Positions 6,279-44,235 of a DNA stretch of 44,565 nucleotides are shown piece after piece. The notes beneath the pieces were generated by a model, which was not told the DNA's origin, did no database searches, and saw nothing but the letters and a program-made list of their open reading frames with translations. Position numbers and translations under genes: made by a program. The number at the start of each line of letters is the position of its first letter. The first letter of the stretch is position 1. This stretch comes from Candidatus Altimarinota bacterium (GTDB lineage Bacteria; Patescibacteriota; Gracilibacteria; JANQMV01): positions 1 to 44,565 of the forward strand of contig JANQMV010000029.1 in assembly GCA_028279865.1 (NCBI GenBank), given 5' to 3'.

Positions 6279-9200
6279 CTATTTCAACCATTCTGGAATA
6301 TCCTTATCTTCTTGTTTTTTAGAATTATTTTCCTCTCGAGGAATTTCCTTAAACTCTGTTTTTGGCAGACTCTTGTCCTGTTTTTTGCTTACCTCGGCTT
6401 GACGGCTTTGATCCTCTCATTTTTTTTGCAATTCCTTTTTATCTTGCTTTTTAGCAGCACTCTTCTCTCCTCAGCCGGTATTTTGACGAATTGGAGATGG
6501 TGCGGGTTTTTGGATTTTTTGTTTTGCCTTATCCGAATCTTTTTTTTGTGATTCGGATTTCACCTTTTTAGGCGCATTCGCATCATTTTTCAGAAGCTTA
6601 GGACCTGCTCAAGTTTTATTTTGAATCGATTTTTTCTCGGAATGATTCTTTTGCTCAACTGTTTTTACAATTTGCTTATTTTTCTCCTGATCATTTTTTG
6701 CCTGCTCTTGCTTTTGGTGAGATGGCTGTTTTTGAACTTTTTTATCTCAAGCTTCTTTTTGAGGCTGAGCCTTAGGCTGCTGCTTCTGTATTTGTTTTGA
6801 TCAAGCGGATTTCGGTTTGTCTTCTTTTAACCAATCCGGAATGTTACCAGAATTTTGCTCCGCCGTACTTTGCTTAGGAGTTTTCACTTTAGGAGAACTT
6901 GTTTGATCTTTTAATTGTTTGGTTAAATTCTTTTCTTCAGTTTTCTCCTCTAGAACCTCCTTTTTCTGATTATTTTTCAAAGTATTTTCATTTTGTAAAA
7001 CAGGTTTTGGTTCATTTTCAGCCCTTCATTTTTGCTGCTGAAGATCTTGTTTAAGCGGTTTAGGAGAAACCTTGGATTCAGGGGTTACTTGATTTTGTCT
7101 TTTTTGCTTCACTCCTCCTGCTCATTCCGATTTTTGAGAAATATTTTTCAACTGAGCAGCTTGTTTCGACTCTGTCACAGCAGAAGGTGACGCAGGTTGC
7201 TTTTCAGAAACCTGACTCTGACTTTGTTTGTCAAAAATAGGCGTTTTTTCTTTTTGCTTAGCTTGTTCACCTGCTGGTTCGGCAGAGCTAGGCTGAATCG
7301 TAGTTTTCTCCTGTTTTAATTGACTTATCGCTGCCTTATTTTGGGGAGAAGGTGTAACTTCTGCTTTTTCGACCTTTGGTTTGTTTAGTTCTGTTTTTTG
7401 TTCAGTAGAATCTCACGGGGAGGACTTTTCTTCTTTCTTTCCTACTACTTGATCCTTCTCTGTACCAGAACTTTGAGTTTGAGCCGGCGTTTTTTGTTGA
7501 GCTTGCCTTAACCAAGCAGGCACTTCTTCTGCTTCAGCTTTATCTTTAACTGCTGAACTTGAAGCAGTTTGTGTTTCTTTTTGAGGAATCGTTTGAGCGG
7601 AAACATCGGCTTGTTTGGTTTCTGTCTGTGTTTTACTTGGCTGAGGCTGAGGAGGTACTTTGGAAGATTCCGGCTGATAAGCATTTTCTCCACCACCTTC
7701 TCCAAAAAGCTTATGCTTTTCCTCTTCAATAAGCTCAGCGAAAGTAAAATCCGGATGCTGGATTTTTAAGTAAATTAAATATCCTCATAAGCCAAAAAGA
7801 ATTAAAGCGATCAGTCCGCCAATCAAATAAATAAAAATACTCATAACTCCCCAAATCAAAGCACCCATTCCTCACTCTTCTGTAATCTGCTCAGGTGGGG
7901 TTTCGTCAACAATAACTGCTCATGTAGAATCAATGACATTTGTACCTGTGCTAACCACCGGTTCTTGAATTTCCAGTGTTTCAATTAAAATTTTATCTTG
8001 TTTTTGATTACTCCTACCAACACTGTCTGTCACTTTTAGGGTCACATTATATTCTGCAAGTTCGGGAAAAATATGTTCGGGTGACTGCTCTGTGCTGGAT
8101 GTACCATCACCAAAATCCCATTCACTCCGATAATCTTTATTTTGTAAATTCGGATCAACGGCAGTCTTGTTTACAAAGACAACCTTCGCTCAATTTATCA
8201 TATACTCAAAACCTACCAAAGGCTGCTTTGTTTCGAATTTATCATCTTCTCACTGAGCTTCTTTGACAACAATTTTTTGAGTTCTTTGCAGTGTTTCCTC
8301 TGTTGAATTTGTTATTTGTAACGTGACTAAATAAGTACCGATTGTATCAAATTTTTGCGTAACTTGTTGTTCTTTTGAATCAAGATCAATCTTACTATCA
8401 CCATCAAAATCCCATTGATATGTTTCATCCTGTTTTCATTTTCTAATTGAAAAATTAACACTCTCATTTACGAAAATCTCCGTCTTGTCCGCCCATATCT
8501 CTGCCTCAATCGAAGGTATTTTTCAAGCGTCATCACCATCAAAAACTATTTCTCTCTGCACAAGACTGCCTTGTCAACTTTGCGTCACAACGGTTAGTTG
8601 GGCAGCAATTTTACCCCAAGCTTTTTCATAGTCAGTTTCAAAATTCTCTCCTGTAGAAAAAGAGGGATGATTGATATTATCAATATCGTTAGCAGGATTT
8701 CAGTCTCCATTTGAATCAAAGTAAATATTCTTATCAATTCTGTATTCTATAATCTCGCCCGTGGACAAGTTACTCAAAAATGTGACGTTTGCCCTTTCTC
8801 AAGCAAGATGAATCTTTTGATCTTCTGGGTTTTGACGTGGCAAATTCAATAATTTTGCTTCCAGAGGACCGGTGACAGTCTCTTTATCAGAGAACATTAT
8901 CTCATATTCTACAGAGTTTTTCTCTCCGGCTTGATTAACAACAGTTAGCTGAACAGCAATTTCTCACCAACTTTTTTGATATTCTGTTGACCATGCAGAG
9001 CCAACCAAGCTGGAAATATCATCCTTGTTGTCAACATCATCTGCAGGATCTCAATTACCATCTGAGTCATAATAAATATTTGCATCAATTTGATACTCTT
9101 TTATTTCACCAACAGAGGAAGCCGACATAAATGTAACCGCCGCCGACTCACCCGAAAGGTAAATCTTCCCATCTTCACTGACCGGAGGCAAAGTTTCCAA

Positions 9201-9575
9201 AACTGCTTTTAAATTTTCAGTTTCATCATCCTCTTCATTGTTACTTACTAAACTTGGCATAATATAGCTTGTACCAACCAATATTTTTACCTTTGAATCA
9301 ATAATTTTATCTTGTTCGACTAAATTCAAAAGCAGGTCATACTCTCATGCTTTTGCAAAAACATATTCAAAATTACGCCCTGTTTGAGTTTCCAAGATTT
9401 CTTCATCTTGCTTAAGTACCCACTTTAGACTACCTTGATTTTTTGAATTTTCCGTGATGCGCACAATTTCACCAATTTTGGCATGTATCAAACCGCTCGC
9501 CTGCACAGGCAGAGCTGCTTTTCAAATGATAAAAAGTGTAAATATTCCAATGATAAATGTTAGTTTTTTGAGCAT
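6279..9575 (-). CDS. PKD/calcium-loop ectodomain protein with one TM and long Gln/Lys-rich cytoplasmic tail
   Basis: 1098 aa when 22 in-frame UGAs are read as Gly; I checked the frame for UAA/UAG along its length and found only the terminal UAG. Residues 1-22 form a signal sequence. The ectodomain contains PKD-like parts (AGEYDLLL, YQWDFDGDS, SEWDFGDGTSS) and two homologous ~90-aa domains with DSDGNGDPADD and DSNGDGNPAND loops resembling calcium sites. One TM segment lies at ~565-600. The remaining ~490 residues are Q/K/P/S-rich and presumably cytoplasmic and disordered. This tail carries three copies of a short motif: VPAWLR (~683), IPDWLK (~911) and IPEWLK at the very C-terminus. The ATG follows the upstream stop by 1 nt, so the two genes are probably translationally coupled. 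Confidence 0.88.
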
Positions 9576-9576
9576 T

Positions 9577-12500
9577 TTACCTTACATTAAAAGATAATCT
9601 TTCCACAAGCGGTCAGCCTGAAATTAAAGGCACTGTCACCTCGACAATAATTAAACCCGGTGCATCTGCTTTAAATGTTGAAATTGCAAGACCTTCCCTT
9701 GCCCTCACTTCACCGGGAATAAAATTACCCGAACCTTCTATGATTTTATAGAAAACAGTTTCATTATAAACTTCACCATTCGCTTGTAGAATCTTAGCCT
9801 TAATATCAACTGTATCATCTTTTTCAATCAGTCGATCTGGCATTGACAGGCTCAGACTACTCATTAAGTTCGCCGAAGTAATGGAAAGAGATTCTTTCTC
9901 TCTAACAATTGAATTTGGCTGATTCAAATTACCGACACGCACAACCCTCTCAACCACATCAGTCGTTGAGAGCTTATCCTTAATCGTTAAGCGTACCTTA
10001 TATTCTCCCGGCTCAGGATAAATATAAACAGGGTCAATTGTATTGTCTTGGTCATCATCATTATTAATGCCGTTCCCGTCATGATCTTCAGTGATATCAA
10101 AATCCCATGAATACCATAAAGTAGTGTCATCCAACGATTCATCAAAACGTGAATTACCTGCATCGAAAGAAACCGTTTGATCATTTACCTCAAAAACAAA
10201 AGCTGCTTCAGGAAAATTGTTTAACCTTTTGACATAAACTTTTTTTACCTTACTGGTACTCAATCAATTTAAATCTACTTTCAAGCGAACATCATATTCA
10301 CCGGGAATGTTATAACGTCGACTAACTTGCTCTCCGGAAGAAACATCATCAAATTTTCCATCTCCGTCAAAATCCCACTTGTATGCATTATTTGGGATAC
10401 TTTCTCCTTGAGGATCAGAAACATTAGCATTGAAATTTATAGAATCTCCGACATAAATCAATGTTTTATCAACAGAAAAATCAACAATCGGTGAAACATT
10501 TTTACCATTTTCAATTTCAAAAGGAACATCGCTGTCAAAAAGTTCTGTACTATTAATGACTCAATTATTGTCATCAGTCATTTCGACCACAAAGTAATAA
10601 TTGTTTTTTTGTCCGGGTAAACCATCTCCCACCACAGTCATTTCCGTAAAATGATTCGAGGTTGTCTGTACTCACCTTTCTCTACTGTCTCCTTCACGGT
10701 AATACCACCAACGATACTTAATCACTTTTCCATCATTATCAGCAACACCTCTTGCGTTAAGTTTAAAAGTCACAGGAGTAATTAGCTCCCCTGAAGGAAT
10801 TATCTCCAAAAAGTTGAGAGTTGGTAAATGATTCACCACTTTTAAATAAAGCTTCTCGCTTTTTGCTGTTTTTAAGGTTTTTAAGTCTTTTACAGTCAAG
10901 GTTATTTCCAAACACTTATTTTTGGTTAGTTCCGTATAATAATGATTTGCCACTTTTTGACTGCTATAAACACCATCACCAAAATCCCAACTATATTCCA
11001 AATTTTTTGCCTCTCCCGCACTATCAACAGACTTATTTGCATCGAAAGTAACTTTGCTACTACGATAAATAGATAAACCTGGCTGATCAACTCCGCAAAG
11101 ATTTTCCGTAAGGCTCAATCACTTGTTATTAACCATGTAATCAATAACAGCAATAGGGCTGTCAGCATAACCAACGTGAATTTTATGTACCTTGGAATTA
11201 AAATTATTTTCGCTATCAAAAATTTTTAACGTTACAGGGAAAATTCCTGCCTGCTTAAAAGCATAAGTTATTTCTTTTTCCTCTGTTTGGAAAATAACAC
11301 CGTCACCAAAATCCCAATAATATACAACCGCCTTATTGGAATTTGCAGTAAAAGTAATCTCTTCATTCTGAGAAACTGCATAACTACTGGCTGAATAATC
11401 AACATTCAAGGTCGATTCAATTTCTATCTCTTTCTCTAAAACATCCTCATTACCAAAAGAATCTACCACCTTTAATCGAGTTCGATATTGACCTTTTTCA
11501 GGAAATACATAAGTTATTGAAAAATCACTCAAGTCTGTCTCTTCGTAGTTTCCATCTCCATCAAAATCCCAATTATATGTTAGTTGCTCGCCATCAGGAT
11601 CATAGCTATCAAAAGCATTGAAAGAAACTCGGTTAGGTCTTGCAATTTCCTCAATTTCCCAATTAAATTTTGCATGAGGTTTTCTGGAATCAACTTTTAA
11701 GTCTATTCTGGAAACATCTGCCTCGCCATAAGCATTATTCACAGTCAGTTCAGCAGTATAGAGCCCCGGATTATTAAACTCATGTTCAAAAACCCTCTCA
11801 TCGGATTCTAAAACAACACTTCCCGAATCATCCAAAATTCTCCACAAATATTCGACAATTTTATCAGTACCGGGCTTTGATTTGGTTGCATCAAATCTAA
11901 ATCTGGTATCAATTTCTCCCGTCTCAGGAATAATGGATGGCTTAGCTACAACACCACTGATATAGAGTTTAAATTTCTTGATATGTTCCTCTTTAAAATC
12001 ATCAACCAGTGTAAGCTTTACAGTATATTCACGGTTTGATCCATAAGAGTGTGTAAATGGATCGCCATCAAACCTCTCGTCTGTTTTACCATCTCCAAAA
12101 TTCCAAAGATATCTTTCAAACTCTCTTCCCGGAGGTGCTTCTGCTTGACTAAGGTCAAAAAGCACTCCTTGTTTTGCAGAAGTTAAATCTACCTTATAAA
12201 AAGTCTCCACTTCATCTCCATTAATTTTAAGATTAAACTGAGTTGATTCCGGATAAACTGTAATTTTTATTGACGCTTGACCATCTAAGACTGTTTTTTG
12301 TCCTGCACTGTTTTTATTATCAGTCACCGTTCTTAAATTGACAATATAGCTTCCCGGCTCATCAAACTCCACTGTCACAACAGGCTTACGGTCAAGTTTT
12401 ATTTCGCTTCCGCTACTATTCACATAACTCCAATAGTAATTATTATCCGGAATGGTCGTATTACTTGGATCTGTTGTCCTCAAAGCATCTAGCGTTACAT

Positions 12501-13329
12501 TCAGAGGTGCATTACCGGAATTCGGACTGGCATTGATCACAGCTTCAATCATCGGCATTTGTGATAAATCATCCCAAAAATCACGATAAGCATCATAAAA
12601 ATCCTTCCAATTTTCATCAGTTGGATTCCTTAAGTATCTGTTAAAAAGATTTTTTAAATTCGTAATATCCAAGCTATAATCTCCAAAATCATTTTGCAAA
12701 TCCCCTAATATATTTTCAATGTTTGTGATAACTGTGTCACCCTCATCACTATCAGCAGGGTTCTCGGAAGGAATATTTTCGTCATCTATGTTTTGGTAAT
12801 AATTATTTATGTAATAATTGTTCGTATAGGTAGTTCCTCCTCCTGATGAAGATGAAGATGAGGAGGATGAGCTTGAACTGCTTGAACTTGAACTACCGGA
12901 ACCTCCACCACCAGCGCCTCCTCCCGAACCTATCACCCAATTCACAATTGCATAAGAGAGAAGGATAATCACTATCCCAATAACAACATAGCCAATTCCC
13001 TGTTTACCTTTGGAAAATTGGTCATCATTTCCCATCGCTGTCACCATCAAAAAGCCACTATAAATAATTGCAATCACAGCAACTAAACCTAAAAAACTCA
13101 GCAGATAATTTACTATTTTTAAAGCTTGCGTTCTTAAATCTCTTTCTTTAATCGTCTCATCAACATACTCCTCATTCGGAGCAACTAAACCATCTCCACA
13201 AGGAATATTATCTCTGATTAATTCTGGTGTACATTTCAGAGCCTGAGCTTCTGGAGAAAACTGTACAATTGATAAGCATGTAAACATGCTAAAAATTAAT
13301 AAAATTAATCACCTTCTAAATTTTGCCAT
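9577..13329 (-). CDS. VirB2/TrbC-like TM hairpin fused to poly-Ser linker and about nine PKD domains
   Basis: 1250 aa with six in-frame UGAs as Gly (13309, 11119, 10672, 10561, 10264, 9613), ending in UAA. Signal peptide MAKFRRGLILLIFSMF...AQA; an in-frame ATG at 13356 is an alternative start. Two TM helices at ~72-99 and ~112-133 separated by a short polar loop resemble the VirB2/TrbC pilin-like hairpin common in CPR genomes. A Gly/Ser linker (~134-166, including a run of about 18 Ser) and an Asn/Tyr-rich stretch follow. About nine PKD domains come next (YNWDFDGDGNYEE, YYWDFGDGV, YSWDFGDGVYSS, YKWDFDGDGKFDD), then a C-terminal invasin-like Ig domain. It follows the small pilin-like gene by 54 nt. 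A surface fibre or stalk is likely. Confidence 0.88.
12838..12921 (-). repeat. Low-complexity poly-Ser/Gly-encoding tract
   Basis: Runs of serine codons (mixed AGT, AGC, TCA, TCC, TCT types) bordered by glycine codons encode a flexible linker between the TM hairpin and the first PKD domain. Because the codons are mixed, the tract looks kept at the protein level more than produced by simple slippage. Confidence 0.8.
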
Positions 13330-13383
13330 ATCTTTAATGTTAATTGAGATCTTCATACCTTATTCTAAATTTTAAAATGGATT

Positions 13384-13794
13384 TTACCCTGTTGGACTTA
13401 CAAAAGTGCTCACTATCGCATAAGCCATAAATATAACTATCAAGCCGATAATAGACCACATTAAAATACTTTTGGCTTTGCCCACGTTCTCTTCATTAGC
13501 AAAACCTGTCACATACAAGAAACCTGCATAAATAATCCCCACAAAAGCAAGCAAAGCAGCATAAGGCAAGAAAAAAGAAACCCAACCTAAAATCAACAGA
13601 ATTAAATTATCTGTTCTCGCTACGCCGTCAACATTATCTCTCACATCTTCCTCCAAAACCTGTTTCATTTCTTTACCACAGAAAACCGTATCACAATCAT
13701 TATCTAAATAAGCTATGTTTGGAAAAGACAAAAAAGCCCCGCAAAAGGAGAAGAAGATTCAAGCAAGTAGAGTTATTTTTTGTATTTTTATCAT
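13384..13794 (-). CDS. Small VirB2/TrbC pilin-like membrane protein
   Basis: 136 aa with a UGA-Gly at 13759 inside the signal peptide (MIKIQKITLLAGIFFSFCGAF); a standard-code caller would start at a downstream TTG. After an acidic ~45-residue segment containing two Cys (CDTVFC), two TM helices (~75-100 and ~107-131) flank the loop TGFANEENVGKAKS. This is the typical layout of TrbC/VirB2 pilin-like proteins. First gene of the surface cluster, directly behind a good promoter and 54 nt before the PKD fusion with the same hairpin. A pilin or pore-like subunit is plausible; no VirB4-type ATPase is in the window. Confidence 0.8.
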
Positions 13795-13828
13795 TTTTAT
13801 TTGTGTTAGTTTTTTTAATTTTCTATGA

Positions 13829-13857
13829 ATTTTAGCATTTTTAACAAAAAAAAGCAA
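13829..13857 (-). promoter_or_regulatory. Promoter of the pilin-like / PKD operon
   Basis: Minus-strand TTGCTT (13857-13852), 17 bp, TAAAAT (13834-13829) with TGC directly before the -10. The leader to the ATG at 13794 is about 28 nt. It likely drives the 136-aa, 1250-aa and 1098-aa genes together. Confidence 0.65.
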
Positions 13858-13959
13858 CCATTTTATTATAAGCAACAAGAGAAATAAATCTTTTAAAAAT
13901 CATTTAATTTTTCTCAAATTCTGCTCTAAACTACAGAGTAGTGAAATAAACCCTCCGCT

Positions 13960-20863: not shown

Positions 20864-22321
20864 CTAATAGTTTAACGCATAAAACAAAACGGAAAACACG
20901 CCGATGCAGAACAAAAACAACGTTCCAAAAAAACTTTGCCTGAAAAGTCTAACTTTTAGAAGAATCAGGAAGTGAAAAATAAAAAAACTAAAAAGAAGGA
21001 TCAGTAAAAAATCCGATGAAAGTGTTTTATAAAAAAACGTCTGCAAAAAAGGCAGATTTTTCTGTAAGACAAGACCTCCGAAATAAAAATAAATTAAGTA
21101 AAAACACAAAAACCAACCAATAAAATTGTTAATCTCCAGAAAAACTTTTTGATAGTCTTTTTTTGCTGAATCAACTTTTTTTCGACTCAAAAAAGAAGCA
21201 AAAAAATTACCCTTTTCTTTTTCGGAGTTTTCTTTTTTTCTCTTTCTAAGATAAACTTTTAGTAAAATTTTCGAATTCAAAAAAGCCGTCTTCCTGCTAA
21301 CACTTGGTTTTAACTGAAAACTGAAAATTGCTTTTAAGTTCTCCTTCAAACTATTTTTCAAATCTTCCGTATTTTTTTCAATTAAATCAACCTCATTAAG
21401 AAGATTATTACTAATCTGCATTTGTTTCTCCAGACTTTTATCAAGCTTGGTTTTCTGATCCTTTTGCAGGTTAGGACCTAGGTTAATAAAATATTTTTTG
21501 AATAAACTTGAAGCTTTTGTTAACGCACCTGAGATACCTTTTATTTCAACAGCCTCTTTATATTGCATTTGCTGTAACCGATCCAAATCAAAAGATTTGA
21601 GACCTTTTTTTTGCTTTATTACAACACTGTACTCTTCTTTATTCTTAAATAAAGATTCTGCAATTTCAAGAATACGTTCAGCAACACTACGTATGTGCTT
21701 AATGTTGTTACTCATTTTTATACGCTCCAGCTCTCCCATCAATGTTTTTATTTGTGCAAGCCCCTCTTTTTTGTCCGGCTCATCTTTAACTTTACTTAAG
21801 ACAGATTTAATTTGCGCAAGCATTACATCAATTTGATTACGCAATACATTCAATTTTTCAATATTTGCTTTCTCTAGTTCTTCTAACTTGTTGTTTTCTT
21901 TTTTATCTACCTCCTCTTCTTCCGCTAGCCCGGAAAGTTCATATTTTTTTTGTAGTTCACTTGCAAGATTTTGCTTTTGTTTTTCCTTTTCAATTTCATT
22001 TGCCTCCAGATCAAAAATATACTTGACTTCAAAGAAGAACTCTTTTTTTAATCTGATATATGCTCTCAAAGCGTCTTTATCATCAATTGTTCCGACAATT
22101 TCTTTGCCTTTTTTATCAACACCTTTAAACTCAAAAGAAGCATAATCTTTCTTTGTTTTTTTGGGTGTTGCTTTTGCTTCATCACCTTTTCTTTCATTAA
22201 TCGCCAGTACGGTCAGACTCATACCATGCAACCTTTTCCTCGCAGAAACCAAATCTTCAGCGGAGATCTCTCCCTCAATTTTTTTATTGCTCTTATTTAA
22301 AGCAATATAATCAAAAATCAT
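20864..22321 (-). CDS. Protein with two PilC N-terminus-like repeats, coiled coil and C-terminal TM helices
   Basis: 485 aa. Residues 1-45 (MIFDYIALNKSNKKIEGEIS, then ARKRLHGMSLTVLAI) match the short N-terminal motif of PilC/GspF (F.Y.A....GK...G.I.A.....AR..L...GL). A second copy at ~60-105 reads FEFKGVDKKGKEIVGTID. However, the helical T2SSF domains that define PilC are absent. Instead there is a long Lys/Glu-rich coiled-coil region (~110-370) and three hydrophobic helices in the last ~100 residues. Its position upstream of the PilB-like gene suggests a pilus or secretion platform role; this is inference. UAG stop, no UGA. Confidence 0.65.
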   Translation of the reverse strand: MIFDYIALNKSNKKIEGEISAEDLVSARKRLHGMSLTVLAINERKGDEAKATPKKTKKDYASFEFKGVDKKGKEIVGTIDDKDALRAYIRLKKEFFFEVKYIFDLEANEIEKEKQKQNLASELQKKYELSGLAEEEEVDKKENNKLEELEKANIEKLNVLRNQIDVMLAQIKSVLSKVKDEPDKKEGLAQIKTLMGELERIKMSNNIKHIRSVAERILEIAESLFKNKEEYSVVIKQKKGLKSFDLDRLQQMQYKEAVEIKGISGALTKASSLFKKYFINLGPNLQKDQKTKLDKSLEKQMQISNNLLNEVDLIEKNTEDLKNSLKENLKAIFSFQLKPSVSRKTAFLNSKILLKVYLRKRKKENSEKEKGNFFASFLSRKKVDSAKKDYQKVFLEINNFIGWFLCFYLIYFYFGGLVLQKNLPFLQTFFYKTLSSDFLLILLFSFFIFHFLILLKVRLFRQSFFGTLFLFCIGVFSVLFYALNY

Positions 22322-28762: not shown

Positions 28763-28791
28763 TTGACAAAAATAAAGACGTTTATTATGAT
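28763..28791 (+). promoter_or_regulatory. Promoter of the isochorismatase-like gene
   Basis: TTGACA (28763-28768), 17 bp, TATGAT (28786-28791): near-consensus. The leader to the ATG at 28831 is about 33 nt. Its -35 is embedded in the right arm of the inverted repeat shared with the hsp20 promoter. Confidence 0.7.
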
Positions 28792-29492: not shown

Positions 29493-30764
29493 TTACTTCC
29501 GCAAAGCCATAATCGGATCCAATCTTGCAGCTTTACGTGCAGGATAAAGACCAAACAAAAGCCCCGTAAAAACAGAAAAAACAATCGCAACCACAAAAGC
29601 CTTAAAAGGAATAATAAAATCCCAATCCAGCCCGGCATAGTTCGCACCAAAAGCAATTAAGTAAGAAACACCAGCCCCAATAATCACACCCACAAAAGCA
29701 CTCAAAAGCGTCACCATCACAGACTCGGTTAAAAATTGAAACATAATATCGGAATACTTTGCACCAACGGCTTTACGTAAACCAATTTCAGCCGTTCTCT
29801 CACTAACAACCACATACATAATATTCATCACCCCCACACCTCAAACAATCAAAGAAATAATCACAATAGCTAAAAGCAGCAAAGTCAAAGCTCCCGTAAC
29901 CACATCCAAAGTATCCATCATTTCCTGCATAGTTACTGTACGAAAATCATCCTTACCAAAACCATCCTCCTCCGTAACCTCCAAATCATGGTTGTCACGT
30001 AAAATCACACGTGCCTGTTCCGCGGTTTCCTCAGCAAAATCAATATCATGCAATCTATGTACCATGTAAGTCACATGATCAATTCCCAGCAATCTTTTTT
30101 GTAAAGTTCGAATTGGAATATAAACATAATCATCAAAATCCATCGTCATCACAGCACCTCTCTCCTCTACTACACCAATCACACGAAATTTGGATTTTTT
30201 GATTTTAATAGATTTACCAATCGCCTCTGAATCACCAAAAAGCTTATCTTTCATCTTTGATCAAAGCACGGCAACACGTGCCAAATTTCGATCCTCTTCA
30301 TCCGAAAAAAAGCGTCCAAATTCAATCTCGCTTTTATCAATATCAATATAAGCTGCATTTGTCCCGAATAAAAAACCTTTGCGCAGTTCATTACCGTAAC
30401 TAATTTGCTCTTGCCCCATAATACCCGCATAACCATCTCTCACATTAGGAAGATCAATTATATCCTCCATATCGTTCAAAGTCAGCGTTGTAATTTGGGC
30501 ACCCATTGCAATCGCTTGAGCTCCTTCTGTATCCATGTTACTACTTGTTTTTTTGTTCGCAGGAGCTTTAATTTCTGTAGAAATAATATCTGTACCAAAA
30601 GATTCAATTTGTCCCAAAACAAGCGACTGAATCCCTGCACCTGCCGAAAAAACAATTACCACGCTCGCCACACCAATCATCATCCCCAAAACTGTCAATA
30701 AAGTTCGGATACGATTACGCTTCATCGCAATTAAAGCCGTTTTGATGATTGAGAAAAATTTCAT
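29493..30764 (-). CDS. MacB-type ABC transporter permease (second copy)
   Basis: 423 aa read through UGAs at codons 168 and 308. The MacB periplasmic-core/FtsX architecture is complete: N-terminal TM (RIRTLLTVLGMMIGVASVVIVFSAGAGIQ), a large extracytoplasmic domain, then three TM helices with MNIMYVVVSERTAEIGLRKAVGA and YPARKAARLDPIMALRK at the end. Both UGAs match GGN codons in the paralogous permease at 32775-34025 (VAVL-G and V-G-GxGxMN). No ATPase gene adjoins it; it may share the one at 34046-34762. Confidence 0.9.
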
Positions 30765-31676: not shown

Positions 31677-32753
31677 TTAAGAAACTGCAGACATTAATTC
31701 TTTTGCCTTTATTCACATGTTAACGTATGCATCTTTAATATCGCCTATTCAGCTTTCACCAAGTTCATCAATTATTTTCCACGCAAACACTTCAAGTTCC
31801 TCAAAGTTTCATTGCACTGAGTATTGATATTCTTTGTGGTCAATAATTTTTTGTTTTAGTTCAGGATTTATTTTTGCAATTTCTTCTAATAAAAATAACT
31901 CTGAAAACTCATAACCTCATTTTACCCTCCATTGATAAGCCATAATATGTTCAAGAATTCTGTGTAATTCAGTTTCTGGCAATAAAGAAAAAGAAGAAAC
32001 ATCAGATAAAAATTCTTTTGCAGCACTAGGATCATCTATCCTTGGGTCTAAATCTTTCCAGTTAACTTTTTTTATTTTTTCTTCATTAATATTTTGTATT
32101 ACATGGCTAGATTCATTAAGGTACCATGCCTTAAGGTATGTTTCATAGTCTAAATTAGGAATGCGCTTTTTTAGCTTTTTAAACTGCTCTCGCACTGCAA
32201 ACAAGTTAATAAAAGCATAATTTGTGTCAGGAAAAGTAAGTCCCATTGAATCGACTGAAGAAGAATTAATTATGTATAAAGCTACTTTCTCTGGCAAAAA
32301 ACCTGCTGGGTAAACTTCGGTTAGAGTAGATTCCTCTGGTTTAAACTCTCTCGGCTTTCGCTCTTCTAAAGGTATAATTTTATAGCCGTAGTAGTAAAAA
32401 TATCCTAAACCAAGAAAATAATCTCTTAACAAACTTCGAACTTGAGAATTAGGCAATCAATCTAAACTCTTGCCTAGATTATTAAGTAAATAATTCTCTC
32501 TTAATAATAAGGCATTTTTTCTCTCTTTTCTTTCAACCATACTCAGGCACTCCTCATTTTGCTGTATAAAGGGAATAAGCTTTTCAGAATCCTTAACTAA
32601 ATTTTCGTCAATCTGCTTTTTAAAATCAGCTATTTCAGCTCTGACATAGCTAAGTAACTCATCATTCTTACAAGCAAGAGCAGCAAAGTCAATTTGCCTT
32701 CTTTTAATTTGTTTAGGAGTTTCCTGTTTTGTTTTACCTGCTATTTCTCACAT
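31677..32753 (-). CDS. Unknown 358-aa protein inside the ABC-export cluster
   Basis: Read through six UGAs (32748, 32457, 31917, 31809, 31749 and 31713), giving MGEIAGKTKQ...KAKELMSAVS and a UAA stop. Soluble, mixed charge, largely helical N-terminus (~1-110), then an aromatic centre (DYFLGLGYFYYYGYKIIPLE) and a NESSHVIQ segment that superficially recalls a metalloprotease helix but lacks HExxH. I recognise no family. It starts 21 nt after the first permease's stop, so it may be co-transcribed with the export genes, and is followed by the toxin-antitoxin pair. The standard code would leave only a 179-aa fragment. Confidence 0.75.
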
Positions 32754-32774: not shown

Positions 32775-34025
32775 TTATTCATACTGAAGTGCCGTAATCG
32801 GCTCCAACTTACTTGCCTTATTTGCAGGATAAATCCCAAAAATCAAGCCAATTAACATTGAAACACCTGCAGCCACAAAAATTGAAGTCAAAGAAATTAC
32901 CAATTCCCAATTATACCCCAGAGCATTTGCAACAACTGAAACTAAAATAGCAATCAGGGAACCACCGATAATTCCAACAATTCCTCACAAAAGCGTAATC
33001 GTCACCGTTTCAATTAAGAACTGAGCTAAAATATTGGTATTTGTCGCTCATACAGCCTTGCGCAAACCGATTTCATGAGTACGCTCTGAGACACTCACCA
33101 GCATAATATTCATAATTCCAATCCCCCCCACAACTAAAGACAGCGCTGCCATTGCCGCCAAAAAGAAACGCAAAGAATCAGTAATCGTAGTAATAATTTC
33201 CAAAGCATCTGCAGCACTATTCACCGTAAAGTCATCGACCTTACCCGTCATATCCTCAATATCATGTTGCTCTCGAAGAGTCATACGTATATCTTCCATA
33301 GCCTGACCGATATTTTCCTCTGAATCAATTTTGACACGAATAAAAGAAACATGATCTATTCCTAGAATCAATTTCTGCAATGAACGAATCGGCACAAACA
33401 ATTCTTTGTCTAAATCCTGAAAAGCTACAACTCATTTCTCTTTCATCACTCCAATAACTTTGAAAGATGTTTTTTTGATCTTAATTCGCTGACCAATCGC
33501 ATCAGAATCACCAAAAAGCTCTTGCTTCACTGCACTCCCCAAAACAGCAACCTTAGAAAGGTTACTCTCTTCCTCTTCAGTAAAAAACCGCCCCTCCTCG
33601 ACTTCTGCCTTAGAAATATCCAGATGACCTGTCGTAGTTCAGCTTAAATTCGCAACATACTCGTTGGAGCGCCAGCTCGTATTGGCGATTCATTTGGAAT
33701 AAGCTGCCACAGCTTTCACATTTGGCACATTTTTTGTTTCTTTCAATGCAAGAGCATCATCATATTTTAATGTTGTAATCACAATCCCCATAGCAGAGGC
33801 AGGCGGACCATCTTCAGACTTACCGGGAAGTATTGCAATCAAATCAGTTCCCAGTGTTTTTACCTGATCGACAATCAAACTCTGTGCCCCGGCTCAAACA
33901 GAAACAATCAAAACAACCGAACCAACACCGATAATAATCCCCAGCATCGTTAAAAAACTCCTCACTTTATTAGCTAAAAGTGACTTTAAAGAGGTAGTCG
34001 TAAATTGTTTGTATGCTTGAAACAT
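32775..34025 (-). CDS. MacB-type ABC transporter permease (first copy)
   Basis: 416 aa with six UGAs (codons 44, 112, 129, 198, 326, 347). N-terminal TM (SFLTMLGIIIGVGSVVLIV), a MacB-type extracytoplasmic domain, then three TMs with GGIGIMNIMLVSVSERTHEI and YPANKASKLEPITAL. UGA 326 is the Gly of LRKAVGA, which the paralogue at 29493-30764 writes as GGT; UGA 44 falls in the conserved SVGAGAQ motif. Preceded by adaptor and ATPase genes in MacA-MacB order. Probable export of peptides or lipids across the single membrane, powered by the ATPase. Confidence 0.92.
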
Positions 34026-37527: not shown

Positions 37528-39165
37528 ATGTATCAAGGTTACGCAATAGAAGAACCTTTCTCACTTCAAACAGTTGAATCTGGTAATCATGTCGATAGTC
37601 AGATGGAAATTTTTCACCATAAGCTTACAACAGCAGATCAAATTCCCCCCCCCCTTGAATTAGATGAATTCTCAGAAGTTCACCAAATTTTTAGCAAAGA
37701 GGTTCGAGCTTTACAATGTAAAAATATCCCCAAATCGCCAGAAAGAATCGTAACCTCACCTGTTGTTGTGATTGATGAGAAAGAATGGTTTCGAGAAGAG
37801 TTTAAAAATCCTTGGTTTTTAATCTATACTCTTGAAGAATTAGCAAAAGAATCCCATTTAAAAATTAAGACAAATGTAACCTCAGAAGTACCTCAAGATA
37901 ATTTTAAGCTAATTGAAAAGATCATGCTCATAAAAAGGAGCTGTGATTTTAGAAAAATCAAAGAACCGAGACAATTGAAAGAAGCTGAAAATGACTTCAA
38001 TAATTTTTTATTATTAAAAATAAAATCAATCCTTGATTTTTTTATCGATAATTATGGTAAATACACTCTCGTTATTAAGGATATTAGTTTTTCTCGTTTT
38101 TTGAATGGATGCATCAAAACATTACCTAACTGGTATCACAAAGCTTTGCAAAATGCTCAAATTATCATTGAACCACATACTTTAGACATGGTTGGTGCCC
38201 ATTATCACAATGAGCCAACTGAACATAACAAACTAGCTCCTCAGGCGGATATTTTTTACTTTAAAAATAGGGATACAGACGTAATCAAGCCTTTTTTAGA
38301 GAAAATTAGAACAGGTGATATTGCTCAAATAAGCCTTGAAGAAGGAGAAACAAAAATAGAATCAGTCAAGCTAATGTTAAAAAAAATTAGCCCCTCTTAC
38401 TTGCCTGATTTTCCAGAAATTGTTCCACAAATTATTGAAAAATATCAAAATCTTTTGCATTTTTTTCAAAGTATCAAACCTATACAAACTCAAACAAAGC
38501 AAAAGATACAAAAAATCTTATTGGCACTGACCATTGAAAGGGCGCGAATTGATACATTCAGCTGTCTCTATGAAAACTCTATTTCTTCAGAACACGACAT
38601 ACACGCTGCTTTAAAAGAAAAAATCGGCTACTTAGACTTGTTTAGCTACCATGAACAATCTTTAGATATAAGAGGACTAAATTTTGCAAAAAGTAATCCC
38701 AAAAAATCTTTTATAAGTGTTGGTTGTGAGTTTGCACCTGGAGGCAGAATCAAAAAGCAGGGAAACAGTAAGGTTTTTTTGCTAAATTATGAAGCTTTAG
38801 CTTTTCTAGAAAGAATTCCTGATGATTACGTTGAAGTAATCAATATAGATGTTCTGCTTGGAACTGAAAAATGTTCCTCAAATAAACTCATTCAAAGTGT
38901 TTATAGAACTCTTGCTCAAAAGGGAGTGGCTTCTTTTTATGTAGATCATACTAAAACAACACAACAAGATATTACAAAACAATTAAAATCAATTGGCTTT
39001 GATCATGTTGTTTTTCCTCCAATCAAAAGAAATGATTGCGATTATTTACACAGAAGAGGTCATCTAAAGAGTCATGAAATAAGAGTTGTTGCTGTAAAAG
39101 CAAAAAACAATGCAGATTATGAAAAAATATTAAGAGACTATTTTCAATATGAAGAAAATTGTTAA
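37528..39165 (+). CDS. Unknown 545-aa soluble protein, possible C-terminal methyltransferase-like fold
   Basis: No signal or TM segment and no family recognised with confidence. The N-terminal ~340 residues are charged and mostly helical. The C-terminal ~190 residues (SFISVGCEFAPGG, YVEVINIDVLL, SVYRTLAQKGVASFYVD, LKSIGFDHVVF) have the strand-helix spacing of a Rossmann SAM-methyltransferase: a motif-I-like strand, a central acidic strand, then a RTLAQKG segment like the usual RvLkpGG. The G-x-G of motif I is not canonical, so activity is doubtful. A run of ten C lies at codons 40-43. No UGA; ends in UAA followed by a terminator. Confidence 0.75.
   Translation: MYQGYAIEEPFSLQTVESGNHVDSQMEIFHHKLTTADQIPPPLELDEFSEVHQIFSKEVRALQCKNIPKSPERIVTSPVVVIDEKEWFREEFKNPWFLIYTLEELAKESHLKIKTNVTSEVPQDNFKLIEKIMLIKRSCDFRKIKEPRQLKEAENDFNNFLLLKIKSILDFFIDNYGKYTLVIKDISFSRFLNGCIKTLPNWYHKALQNAQIIIEPHTLDMVGAHYHNEPTEHNKLAPQADIFYFKNRDTDVIKPFLEKIRTGDIAQISLEEGETKIESVKLMLKKISPSYLPDFPEIVPQIIEKYQNLLHFFQSIKPIQTQTKQKIQKILLALTIERARIDTFSCLYENSISSEHDIHAALKEKIGYLDLFSYHEQSLDIRGLNFAKSNPKKSFISVGCEFAPGGRIKKQGNSKVFLLNYEALAFLERIPDDYVEVINIDVLLGTEKCSSNKLIQSVYRTLAQKGVASFYVDHTKTTQQDITKQLKSIGFDHVVFPPIKRNDCDYLHRRGHLKSHEIRVVAVKAKNNADYEKILRDYFQYEENC
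37645..37654 (+). repeat. C10 homopolymer within the start of the 545-aa ORF
   Basis: Ten consecutive C encode part of IPPPLEL. In an AT-rich coding sequence this is conspicuous, and any 1- or 2-bp length change would switch the gene off. Confidence 0.9.
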
Positions 39166-39257: not shown

Positions 39258-41051
39258 TTACTTCTTCACTCTCCCCAACCTCACCCGATCACTCTCCGTC
39301 AAATGCTGCTTACGCAATCGAATACTTTCCGGCGTGATTTCCAAATATTCATCCTCACTCATAATACTCATCCCACGTTCAAGCGTCATCTCCTGCGGAG
39401 GAGTCAGGCGAATCGCCTCATCCGAACCGGAAGCACGCACATTGGTCAGCTGTTTCCCCTTCGTCGGATTCACCACCATGTCATTCCCCTTCGCCACATT
39501 ACCCACGACCATTCCTTCATAAACATCAATATTTGGTCCGATGTATAAAGTTCCACGATCCTGCAAATTGAACAAAGAAAAGCCCAAAACTTTTCCGGTC
39601 GCCATTGAAACCATCGAACCAACATCATGTTTCTCAATTTCCCCCGCATGCGGTTTAAAACCAATCACACGAGTATACATAATCCCCTCGCCACGCGTAT
39701 CCACCACAAAATCATTACGATATCCCAGCAGTCCACGTGTCGGAATTTCAAAAACCAATTTTACATTCCCATGCTCCGGAGTCATTTCCGTCATATTTCC
39801 TTTCCGTTTGGAAAGCTTTTCAATCACCACACCAGTCATCTCATCCGGCACCGTAATCGTCACCTCTTCAAAAGGTTCCACTTTCACTCCATCTTCTTCT
39901 TTGATAATTACATGCGGCTGGGAAATCTGCATTTCATAACCTTCCCGTCGCATATTTTCCAGCAAAATCGCAATATGCATTTCACCTCTTCCGTACACTT
40001 TATAAAAATCCGTTGAATCAAAATCAATCTTCAAACCAACATTAATTTCCAGCTCTTTCTCCAGCCTTTCTTTAATCTGACGACTCGTTACAAATTTTCC
40101 TTCCCTACCTGCAAACGGGGAATTATTCACCAAAAAATTCAAAGAGATCGTTGGCTCGTCAATATTAATCGCTGGCAAAGGCTCTTGCTCTTCATCTTCA
40201 CAAATTGTTTCGCCAATATAAATATTCGGCAAACCAGCCACCATCACAATATCTCCCGCATAAGCTTCCTCCACTTCCTTGCGATTCAAACCTTCAAAAG
40301 TAAACAGTTTGGAAATTTTTCCTGTCCTAGTTTCTCCTTCCGGAGTTTTAATCACAACATTGGCATTCTTTTTCAAAGCACCTTCATAAATCCTTCCCAC
40401 CGCCAAACGTCCCAAGAAATTATCATAACCAAGGTTGAATGGTTGTACACGTAAAGCTTGCTCACTGGCAACATTACTGGAAGCTACGGGTACTTCTTTT
40501 AAAACAACATCCAGAAGTGGCATCAAATCTTTTGAATCATCCTCCATATTTGTTTTCGCAATTCCCTGCTTCGCAATAGCGTACACTGTCGTAAAATCAA
40601 GCTGTTCGTCTGTTGCTCCCAAATCTAAAAACAATTCAAAAACCATTTCATGTACATCATCGACACGTGCCGCGGGTTTATCAATTTTATTAATAACCAC
40701 AATCGGCTTAAGCCCCAAATCCAAAGATTTTTTCAAAACGAATTTTGTCTGTGGCATCGGTCCTTCTTGCGCATCTACAAGCAAAAGTACCGAGTCAATC
40801 GAGCGCAAAACACGTTCAACTTCCGAACCAAAATCAGCATGTCCCGGAGTATCTACAATATTGATTTTGGTATCTTTATAATTTACAGATGTATTTTTCG
40901 CATAGATCGTAATCCCCCGCTCTTGTTCCAAGTCATTACTATCCATGCTCACACTTTCATCAGACATTCCCGTCTGCACCATCAGAGCATCAGTCAGAGT
41001 TGTTTTACCGTGATCCACGTGAGCGATAATTGCAATATTTCTAATTTCCAT
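39258..41051 (-). CDS. typA: Translational GTPase TypA/BipA
   Basis: 597 aa, full length. GTPase motifs [10 protein letters not shown] (G1), RGITI (G2), DTPGHADFG (G3), NKID (G4). EF-G-like domains II, III and V follow, then the BipA-specific C-terminus ([20 protein letters not shown], then [20 protein letters not shown]). Ribosome-binding GTPase involved in assembly and stress adaptation. All 47 glycines use GGN codons, none UGA. UAA stop; its own promoter lies 27-55 bp upstream. Confidence 0.97.
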
Positions 41052-41178: not shown

Positions 41179-44151
41179 TTAAGCAGCTTGATCAAACTCA
41201 ACTTGTTTTACATCTGAAGTTGGTGAATCACTTAAATTAAACACAGAATAACCTATTCTCTTCCTAGCTTCTCGAGAAATTTCCTGGGGGTTTTGCTGAT
41301 TCGGCAAAGCTGTCAATTTTTCATACAAAACCTGACCAGGCACATTTAGAGTTTCTGAATTATGAACTTGACGTATTTCATCTATTGCTTGCTTAGACTT
41401 GCCTTCTGAGAGGCTGATTAATTTACTTCTCACAACTTTCAAGTTTTCAACCAAAGCAGAATAATCCTTGCCATCAAACATTTTCACTTCAAAACGCTCT
41501 ATATATTTATCCAAAACATCTGCAACACTCAAACCCGGATTGTTTACCAGACCCGCTGCAATCATTTTGATAAATCTTTTACTTGAATCTGCATTGATTT
41601 TATTTTTGCTCTTGGCTAAAAGATTTTTTAGAAGACTTAAATCCCCCCGATGTTCCAGCACAATCTTCATATTGGCGGGCGTTTTTTTAAAAGACGTGCC
41701 TTTTACAAATTCTACTGCTGTTACATCCTTAGGCTTGTTTTTTTCATAAAGTTCTTGCAACTTAAGCAAACTGGTTTGTTTCTGAAACTCCGTCATTTGT
41801 TGATGAAGTTCGCGTGCTGCAGATTTTCGCTTTAGAGCCTTAATCGTCGCTTTATGAAAGCCAATTTGCTCAAACCAACCAAAGATAGTAAGCTCCGGAT
41901 TTTTCTTTTTGGCATACATAAATCTTTTTAAATAGCCCATTTTAATAACCTTGCTCTTATGTTTTTTGTCAAAAATTCGATTACCCATCTGATATTTTAC
42001 TTCTTCCAAAACAGATTTTTCTGCTTGGGTTAGATTTACTGAAGCTAACTTTGTCGTTGCCAATTTCCTTTCAACCTTATTAATTTTTGAATGAACCTCA
42101 ATCGCATTTGCCAAGACTAAATTTGCAATCACAGAAGGGTTAAAAATAACGGGGCTATTAATTTCTCTGATTGATTTTATATAGTCGATCTTTGCCTGAG
42201 CAATTTGTTCCTTCATTTGTACATCACCCAATCCCAAAGCTTTAATTTGCTCAATTTTTGTTAAATATGCCGCATAAGCATCTTCAAGTTCATCAAATTT
42301 CAGATTGTTATAAATCTCAGGAAGTTGATTTCCCAAAACCTTTTTTAAAGACCTCACCGCACTATCGGCATAAGTTCTCTGCATTTGTTTTGGTCCCCAA
42401 GACATACCTCCATCAGAAGGAAAAAACATCTTAGGATCATTAAAATTTCCACTGTTTTCCGAAGCCAAAACTTTAAATAAATAATTGTTTACAGATTCCT
42501 TGCCGGGTATTACTTTTGCTTTTTCTGCAACTTTAGGCTCCAGCTGAACTTGGTCTGTAAAATTTTGAATCTTACGATACATTTTAAACATAATGCTTGC
42601 CATCTTTTTTTTGTGCTGAGCGGTCAACTCTTTTGTATGATCAATTTTTGGGAAATAACCAAGCGCAAGATCTCGAGCTAAATTCTCATTCTTTTCAAGA
42701 AAAGTTAAAAACATTCCTTGGGAAGGTTTCTCTGTTAATAAACTAGGCTGCGCGGCAGGATTTTCTGCATTTGTAATTTCAGAAAAAATCATCTGCATTA
42801 AATCCTGAAGTTCTGCTTCGCTTGCAATAGTTTGTGCTTTATCTGGTACAGGAGGAAACTCTTCTGTAATCGTCAAAATAGGCTGAATAGGCTGAAGACC
42901 TGATTTTTTTTGTTGCGGTGAAACATGCGTTTGGTCAGTCGAAACTCCCTGCTTTTTTTTATCAACAGAAAGTAATTGCCTTCTTTCTGCTAAATTCGTT
43001 TGCTCAACTTTCTCTAAAGAAACTTTTTGCCAATCTTGAGGAGTAATTTTAAACCTTGTCAGCTTACCTTTATAATTTGCCTGAAGATGTAGGTTACCAT
43101 CTTTTACCGAAATAATGTCACATTCCAAGGCCTCTGCTCCCTCCGGCTTAAAAATATATTTATCTCCAATCTTGAATTGATTTAAATAAGCCTGAAATTT
43201 TTCAAATAAAGCAGTTACAACCTTCGCATCAGGTAGTCCGTACAGCCTCCCCGTATCAATCTTCCGATCATCAGCAAAAGTTTTTTTAGCACTAAAGATA
43301 ATATTTTTTTGCCATTTTTCTAAGCCAAGAGCCTTCGCAATTTCAGTGGCATTCATCCCAAAAGTCGCCACATATGATTGCAGAGAAGAAATAATCTCCT
43401 GTGCATAAGCTGGTTTTACTTTAGAAGCTTCTTCCTCCTGAACTTTGATAAAAGGTGAACCTTCAGGAGCCTGAATATCTTTAAGCACCAAAAAGCCCGG
43501 CTGTACATTTTTTACAAAATAGTAGTTACCCTGATAACTTACAAAAGAACCTCGCGTATATTCAGAAAAATCAGCTCTTTTTAGGTTTTCTGACTTTACA
43601 ACAGGTTTCGTCATGGTAGCTTCATCAGCTACAGCTGTGACTAAAGGAGTTGGCAAATCATTATTAGTTGCTTCAGGAACAGTCTCTTTAGTAGCCATTC
43701 TCTGTACCACATTTTGTTCTATCAATGGAGCTTCTTGTTCTTTTTTTACTTTTTCCTTTTCAATTGAAGTCGCATCCACAGTCGGTCTCTTTACCTCTTT
43801 TTCAGTTTGCTTAAATTTTTTGTCAGTCGCTCGAATTGCCGCCAAATCTGCTCTCAATTGCTCTACCTTTATCATACTCGGATCAGATTTTGCAACTGGT
43901 ACTTGTGGCAAATCACTAGAAAGATTGTTCATAAGCTGGGGATCTTGGTCACCCGTATAAGTCGGTGCCAAAACCGCTGCAGCAATTACGGTTCCTTTTG
44001 TCAAAGCCTTACTAGGACTCTCAAAAACATTCTTTATACAAGAACGGACTCCTCTCGTAATACGCTTAAAAATACCTGATTTTTGTTCTGGCGTCTTATC
44101 AAAAGCAAAAGGATGATTTCCTAATTGTTCAGCAAGTGTCATAGAAGCCAT
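41179..44151 (-). CDS. Large unknown protein with a lysozyme/transglycosylase-like motif
   Basis: 990 aa, no UGA. The basic N-terminus has one short hydrophobic stretch (GTVIAAAVLAPTY, ~53-65), perhaps a membrane anchor. It is followed by a Pro/Lys/Glu linker and two small SH3-like beta segments (GSFVSYQGNYYFVKNVQPGF ~190-210; IGDKYIFKPEGAEALECDI ~325-345). At ~560-595, VLASENSGNFNDPKMFF and GGMSWGPKQMQ resemble the SLT/lysozyme pattern (Glu in E.SG.., then G..Q). Glu565 would be the catalytic residue. The rest is helical and Lys-rich. Could be a cell-wall-acting or cargo-like protein; confident only that it is a real gene. Confidence 0.75.
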   Translation of the reverse strand: MASMTLAEQLGNHPFAFDKTPEQKSGIFKRITRGVRSCIKNVFESPSKALTKGTVIAAAVLAPTYTGDQDPQLMNNLSSDLPQVPVAKSDPSMIKVEQLRADLAAIRATDKKFKQTEKEVKRPTVDATSIEKEKVKKEQEAPLIEQNVVQRMATKETVPEATNNDLPTPLVTAVADEATMTKPVVKSENLKRADFSEYTRGSFVSYQGNYYFVKNVQPGFLVLKDIQAPEGSPFIKVQEEEASKVKPAYAQEIISSLQSYVATFGMNATEIAKALGLEKWQKNIIFSAKKTFADDRKIDTGRLYGLPDAKVVTALFEKFQAYLNQFKIGDKYIFKPEGAEALECDIISVKDGNLHLQANYKGKLTRFKITPQDWQKVSLEKVEQTNLAERRQLLSVDKKKQGVSTDQTHVSPQQKKSGLQPIQPILTITEEFPPVPDKAQTIASEAELQDLMQMIFSEITNAENPAAQPSLLTEKPSQGMFLTFLEKNENLARDLALGYFPKIDHTKELTAQHKKKMASIMFKMYRKIQNFTDQVQLEPKVAEKAKVIPGKESVNNYLFKVLASENSGNFNDPKMFFPSDGGMSWGPKQMQRTYADSAVRSLKKVLGNQLPEIYNNLKFDELEDAYAAYLTKIEQIKALGLGDVQMKEQIAQAKIDYIKSIREINSPVIFNPSVIANLVLANAIEVHSKINKVERKLATTKLASVNLTQAEKSVLEEVKYQMGNRIFDKKHKSKVIKMGYLKRFMYAKKKNPELTIFGWFEQIGFHKATIKALKRKSAARELHQQMTEFQKQTSLLKLQELYEKNKPKDVTAVEFVKGTSFKKTPANMKIVLEHRGDLSLLKNLLAKSKNKINADSSKRFIKMIAAGLVNNPGLSVADVLDKYIERFEVKMFDGKDYSALVENLKVVRSKLISLSEGKSKQAIDEIRQVHNSETLNVPGQVLYEKLTALPNQQNPQEISREARKRIGYSVFNLSDSPTSDVKQVEFDQAA

Positions 44152-44206: not shown

Positions 44207-44235
44207 ATTTTAAAACTTTTTACCTTATTTGTCAA
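44207..44235 (-). promoter_or_regulatory. Promoter of the 990-aa gene
   Basis: Minus-strand consensus TTGACA (44235-44230), 17 bp, TAAAAT (44212-44207). The leader to the ATG at 44151 is about 49 nt with no Shine-Dalgarno sequence. Confidence 0.7.

Follow-up and report, generated by a model that had tools for sequence, protein, structure and literature searches.

Enzymes that open the cell wall have been proposed, but little tested, in ultrasmall episymbiotic and predatory bacteria (PMC11665869, PMC8080830). A lytic murein transglycosylase and other wall hydrolases are described for the predator Vampirococcus lugosii (PMC8080830), two proteins of Gracilibacteria are annotated as transglycosylase (PMC11452946), and such enzymes have been proposed to compromise the host envelope (PMC11665869). 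The protein considered here, P0001, resembles the wall-attacking proteins of V. lugosii in its proposed role and in coming from related candidate phyla (PMC8080830). Among the papers listed on wall enzymes of Gracilibacteria, Absconditabacteria, Patescibacteria and the candidate phyla radiation, a literature in which sequence is unsearchable, no title or abstract opening describes this protein family.

P0001 is encoded by an open reading frame without interruption on the minus strand (Table 1), at the place where a sequence-only reading of this DNA had put a 990-aa protein, and the plus strand across the same interval contains stops throughout. The window, which is the whole stretch analysed, is an entire contig of 44,565 bp from a draft genome of 1.48 Mb (completeness 95.8%) in which P0001 is present in one copy. 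The contig ends 414 bp upstream of the gene, and typA/bipA (39258-41051) lies 127 bp downstream on the same strand. Several neighbouring genes are readable only with TGA as glycine. In-frame TGA codons number two in 29493-30764 and six each in 32775-34025 and 31677-32753; in 29493-30764 and 32775-34025, which look by eye like MacB-type permeases, they seem to lie at conserved glycines. These genes indicate code 25 of Gracilibacteria/Absconditabacteria, and the coding sequence of P0001 contains zero TGA codons.

Other genes of the window were also surveyed. A 1259-aa protein (9577-13356, minus strand) combines an N-terminal T4SS/TrbC-like pilin domain (PF18895, 2.4e-7) with PKD repeats, an unusual-looking pilin-PKD stalk fusion, and adjoins a separate 177-aa T4SS-type pilin (13384-13917, minus strand). 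In a PKD protein of 1098 aa (6279-9575, minus strand), 22 TGA codons lie in frame and the tail is long and rich in K/Q/E/P. Of ten window proteins scanned, three had no Pfam match at E<=0.01, namely 20864-22321 (minus strand, 485 aa), 31677-32753 (minus strand, 358 aa) and 37528-39165 (plus strand, 545 aa).

The sigma-70-type promoter-like site upstream of P0001 is separated from its ATG by 55 nt. Sites with at least 11 of 12 matches are expected at a mean of 0.005 per 400-nt random sequence with the upstream composition, and this rarity supports the earlier proposal that a promoter drives the gene. The window holds four such sites, at 28763 and 37465 on the plus strand and at 44235 and 3937 on the minus strand, each just upstream of an open reading frame and on the correct strand. 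Since all four sites of 11 or 12 matches precede open reading frames, plain promoters of the sigma-70 type are apparently in use in this lineage. Counting against the promoter, sites with at least 9 of 12 matches were not enriched in the stretch upstream of P0001 (6 versus 8.7 in shuffles).

Table 1. Features of the P0001 gene and of its upstream region, in window coordinates.
Feature	Coordinates	Strand	Basis
P0001 open reading frame	41179..44151	-	ATG at 44151, stop TAA; single match in own genome
Sigma-70-type promoter-like site, TTGACA-17-TAAAAT	44207..44235	-	11/12 positions
Residues 49-67, weakly hydrophobic, after basic N-terminus; possible signal or anchor	43951..44007	-	mean hydropathy 1.48 (15 residues), 1.01 (19)
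Residues ~195-245, small beta-like module (by eye), resembles that of the homolog	43417..43569	-	score 33; 29 of 2000 shuffles reach it
Residues ~540-735, proposed expanded lysozyme-like core	41947..42534	-	alignments, SLT profile registers, two-block ranking
Glu565 codon, proposed catalytic residue	42457..42459	-	SLT profile registers and two-block ranking
DGGMSWGPKQMQ, residues 580-591, proposed GxxQ loop	42379..42414	-	motif search and two-block ranking
YQMG, residues 720-723, candidate counterpart of SLT YNxG	41983..41994	-	picked by eye, weaker

The only homolog found is P0002, a 722-aa protein of Candidatus Gracilibacteria isolate McD1.9 (JAOARU010000022.1; genome G001, loci L007/L017). 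The two proteins are identical at 35 of 187 aligned residues (19%; BLASTP E=1e-5 for the single comparison), with a local score of 86 against 46.8 (sd 6.0, maximum 78) in 500 shuffles. They have in common, in the same order, a basic N-terminus, a hydrophobic stretch, a beta-like module and the motifs E[SN]x?G and GG[LM]SxGxx[QH]MQ, and in both a YxxG stretch lies downstream (YQMG at 720 in P0001, YRYG at 497 in P0002). The best 15-residue hydropathy mean is 1.48 in P0001 and 2.43 in P0002. A second beta-looking stretch of P0001 (323-385) was rejected as a further copy of the module, being similar neither to residues ~195-245 nor to the module of the homolog. Each motif occurs once per protein, at 565 and 581 in P0001 and at 354 and 387 in P0002. 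GG[LM]SxGxx[QH]MQ appeared in 0 of 20000 shuffles of P0001, yet it recurs in P0002; E[SN]x?G appeared in 9941 of 20000 and is thus meaningless by itself. In P0001 the first motif is ENSGN, beginning at Glu565, and SWGPKQMQ begins at 584, so that both elements named in the sequence-only reading were located.

The two proteins also differ. P0002 is 268 residues shorter, its Glu-to-loop spacing is 17 residues longer, and its loop has His (G-I-G-H-M) where P0001 has Gln (G-P-K-Q-M). In the alignments E565 of P0001 and E354 of P0002 stand in different columns; conservation of Glu565, a check proposed with the earlier reading, thus holds in motif context and fails for the alignment column. Within the short flanks compared, the two loci share no gene neighbour.

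Beyond this pair, searches for relatives returned chance matches or none. That the rest of the protein is unique, as had been claimed, agrees with the lack of a family match in Pfam, PHROGs, NCBIfam and PDB sequences. Pfam gave three names for P0001 at E<=10, each below its own cut-off and none of them SLT or lysozyme, and no family for four separate pieces of the protein; PHROGs gave only two weak rows, NCBIfam 0 matches and PDB sequences 0 at E<=1. PADLOC gave nothing for P0001 and one weak BrxA row for P0002. A protein search of 353 class genomes matched four, the own genome and three chance rows. Among the weak hits that reading showed to be chance, those in G018 and G331 (P0001 residues 417-561) lie inside uvrA genes and that in G044 is an unrelated 704-aa protein. 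Among 84,980 species, 60 pattern stretches included no confirmed relative. A protein search of viral contigs found no relative, and phages gave eight records, all at E=9.

When P0001 residues 480-732 served as query, seven of 341 genomes matched at E<=5, and the true homolog (E=0.0106) did not outscore a chance row in G280 (0.0101). The rows read were those of G001, G280 and G066, the last two in or beside unrelated genes; G310, G179 and G351 were left out of the reading. P0002 as query matched two of 59 genomes, its own and G002, whose row (E=0.03) contains two internal stops and was rejected; viral contigs gave none. A profile of the two proteins matched six of 341 genomes; two of these are the pair's own, and the remaining four rows, with E 0.05-0.11, were left unread. 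Against PDB sequences the pair gave three rows (E 0.17-1.5), no lysozyme among them. The motif as a DNA pattern was found at 11 loci in the 84,980-species collection; judged by translation, the sole relative was McD1.9, and the other ten loci were unrelated proteins or broken frames. The same pattern matched seven of 329 class genomes (the own genome, G001 and five chance places) and was found 0 times in viral contigs.

The motif order was compared with the active sites of the SLT family (PF01464). Of 60 class genomes, counting the own one, 24 have a PF01464 match at E<=0.001 and 23 one above the cut-off, with 34 places listed. The own genome has no match at E<=10 (0/1), P0001 lies below the SLT membership cut-off, and P0002 matches no SLT or lysozyme profile in Pfam. 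A class SLT model was built from 31 domain stretches (20 + 11 loci), which cover 29 of the 34 places because L073 and L074 repeat L058 and L055; the model omits L064 and four places that have no locus. Eleven SLT proteins were read over their whole length or as far as the contig runs. Both hhalign and hmmsearch placed the catalytic Glu of this model on Glu565, at non-significant scores. For P0002, hmmsearch placed the SLT AYNxG stretch on AYRYG (1.5 bits) and hhalign gave a wrong register. Shuffles reached the full score of the SLT profile in 16 of 300 cases for P0001 and 5 of 300 for P0002, and the best-domain score in 42 of 300 and 5 of 300. P0001 residues 796-866 scored -1.7 bits against the profile, near the -1.5 bits of the Glu565 stretch.

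A two-block model of 29 class SLT sites ranked E565/Q589 first of all P0001 pairs with a score of 7.08, which narrowly tops the 23 other window open reading frames tested (6.73). Glu552, another catalytic candidate, ranked fifth. In P0002 the pair E354/H395 came second, behind by 0.03. The P0001 rank is partly circular, since Glu565 was originally picked for its SLT resemblance; that of P0002 is less so, the site having been found by homology. Shuffles reached the two-block score in 30 of 300 cases for P0001 and 283 of 300 for P0002. Placement and order thus agree with SLT, and strength does not. The SLT/lysozyme active site proposed at the outset has moderate support, from the recurrence of the motif in one homolog, the first rank of Glu565/Gln589 and the profile Glu falling on Glu565, with non-significant scores throughout. 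It is a doubtful but serious possibility that the resemblance is coincidental and that the C-terminal ~450 residues form an unrelated, non-enzymatic fold. SLT-model scores within the shuffle range and the failure to match either a profile or a fold suit such a coincidence; the recurrence of E..GG[LM]SxGxx[QH]MQ in the homolog, and the ranking of precisely these sites as first in P0001 and second in P0002, argue against it.

Spacing gave a further comparison. From Glu to Gln the 31 class stretches span 18-24 residues, and P0001, with 24 (E565-Q589), has its GxxQ loop at the class distance; P0002, with 41 (to His), does not, and also falls outside the 17-26 allowed when class sites were located. 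From Glu to Tyr the distance is 155 in P0001 and 143 in P0002. Of the 31 class stretches, 28 have a YN/HN-type motif that could be placed, at a distance of 63-97 and most commonly 69 (the YN motif being preferred where there were two), with 136 in L065. If this reading is right, an insertion of ~50-80 residues would separate the GxxQ loop from the YxxG motif. L065, a class SLT protein of 1205 aa, resembles P0001 in its Glu-to-Gln distance of 24 and in a similar expansion before Tyr; it is over the Pfam SLT cut-off with neighbouring pieces counted (22.6 bits). Class SLT proteins such as L065 and L074 (405 aa) have Glu followed by the GxxQ loop and are often large multi-part proteins, as P0001 is, but the Pfam SLT profile recognises these two and not P0001. 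The SLT/lysozyme-like island first described as ~40 residues is longer (about 545-735) and better read as an expanded core of ~190 residues containing Glu565, Gln589 and Tyr720.

The pair was also aligned directly with the 11 class SLT proteins. For the P0001 region only L066 scored above all 300 shuffles, and for P0002 the score of L069 was reached by 9 of 300 shuffles; these were the two alignments inspected, and both lie outside the active-site register. When a 38-residue island of P0001 was slid gap-free over the 11 proteins, the top position was the catalytic Glu in L065 and L073 and tied with it in L066, and it was elsewhere in the other eight; the island was chosen for resemblance, so this result is partly circular. 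In the converse test the L065 island placed residue 565 of P0001 second (14), behind residue 64 (17). By eye, five of the 11 SLT proteins (L066, L067, L068, L071 and L074) share an N-terminal module in which an IGxG-like stretch precedes Y(I/M/L)(P/E)I..G, perhaps a class-specific targeting part; P0001 is without this module.

Fold prediction, another check proposed with the sequence-only reading, was run with AlphaFold and gave models too weak for a fold: pLDDT was 41.6 for P0001 499-791 with a two-row alignment and 56.8 for P0002 318-545 alone. In each of these low-pLDDT models the Glu marks the end of a helix (554-564 before E565 in P0001; 343-354 in P0002, with E354 last). The view that the remainder of P0001 is helical is not demonstrated at this pLDDT for 499-791, and residues ~195-245 look beta-like by eye. 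Foldseek returned nothing at E<=0.001 for either model. VIA-align of the P0002 model ranked E. coli MltE first (6ghy; Z 4.4, rmsd 3.8, 88 aligned) and third (6ghz; Z 4.4, rmsd 4.1, 91 aligned) and the cod goose-type lysozyme 3gxk sixth (Z 4.2, rmsd 3.2, 80 aligned). These rows may be read as a hint: their Z is at noise level, they cover model residues 119-212 and leave E354 uncovered, and unrelated helical proteins appear at similar Z. Neither MltE nor the cod lysozyme was matched by sequence. For the P0001 model no lysozyme was among the 50 rows listed, which at pLDDT 41.6 excludes nothing.

Overall, P0001 is probably a strongly diverged envelope protein of the lysozyme superfamily and not a member of Pfam SLT. 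The fuller reading, on which our judgement is evenly balanced, is a lineage-restricted, fast-evolving envelope protein in which residues ~540-735 would be an expanded, diverged lysozyme-superfamily core. Its basic-then-hydrophobic N-terminus fits export or anchoring, and most likely P0001 is an envelope-bound or exported predicted murein-cleaving enzyme. The GxxQ and YNxG motifs of lytic transglycosylases line the glycan groove. The open reading frame, the promoter-like site and the homolog with matching motif order are observed, whereas the fold, catalysis, location and target of P0001 are inferred. In the mechanism proposed, the N-terminus would take the protein into or across the membrane, and the long linker and beta-like module would span or bind the wall. 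Placed at a helix end, Glu565 would donate a proton to the MurNAc-GlcNAc glycosidic bond, and the groove would be lined by the SWGPKQM loop together with the YQMG stretch further along. Such an enzyme would cleave murein locally, either in the wall of its own cell or in the wall of the cell lived on.

It is unlikely that P0001 is instead a structural protein of the surface or envelope whose lysozyme-like core is a remnant, so that murein is bound and not cut and the protein serves as wall anchor or spacer. This would account for the strong divergence, the unequal Glu-to-loop distances (24 versus 41), the His replacing Gln in the P0002 loop and the failure of the two Glu to share an alignment column, but both proteins have kept E[SN]x?G and a near-identical loop motif, a conservation that binding by itself would not require. 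Phage tails contain large proteins that carry lysozyme islands, yet a chromosomal leftover of a tail-type or other phage-derived lysin is very improbable for P0001, given PHROGs rows that are weak or absent, viral contigs without a relative, phage records that all stand at E=9, and typA/bipA as the neighbouring gene.

For the diverged murein-cleaving enzyme, the reading preferred here, the key claim hangs on a single homolog and is held with moderate confidence. The murein genes of the own genome include those for two PF00912 transglycosylase domains and for three M23 peptidases, with no PF01464 match, and the presence of PF00912 and M23 genes suggests that the source bacterium probably makes and remodels murein. 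More tentatively, P0001 and its McD1.9 relative may form a separate family of the lysozyme superfamily, with 50-80 extra, probably helical residues between GxxQ and YxxG, in fast-evolving envelope proteins of 700-1000 aa that would cut the wall of a host or prey. Glu565 offers one testable residue. P0001 was missed by the profile libraries used, which suggests that counts of wall enzymes in such genomes may be too low.
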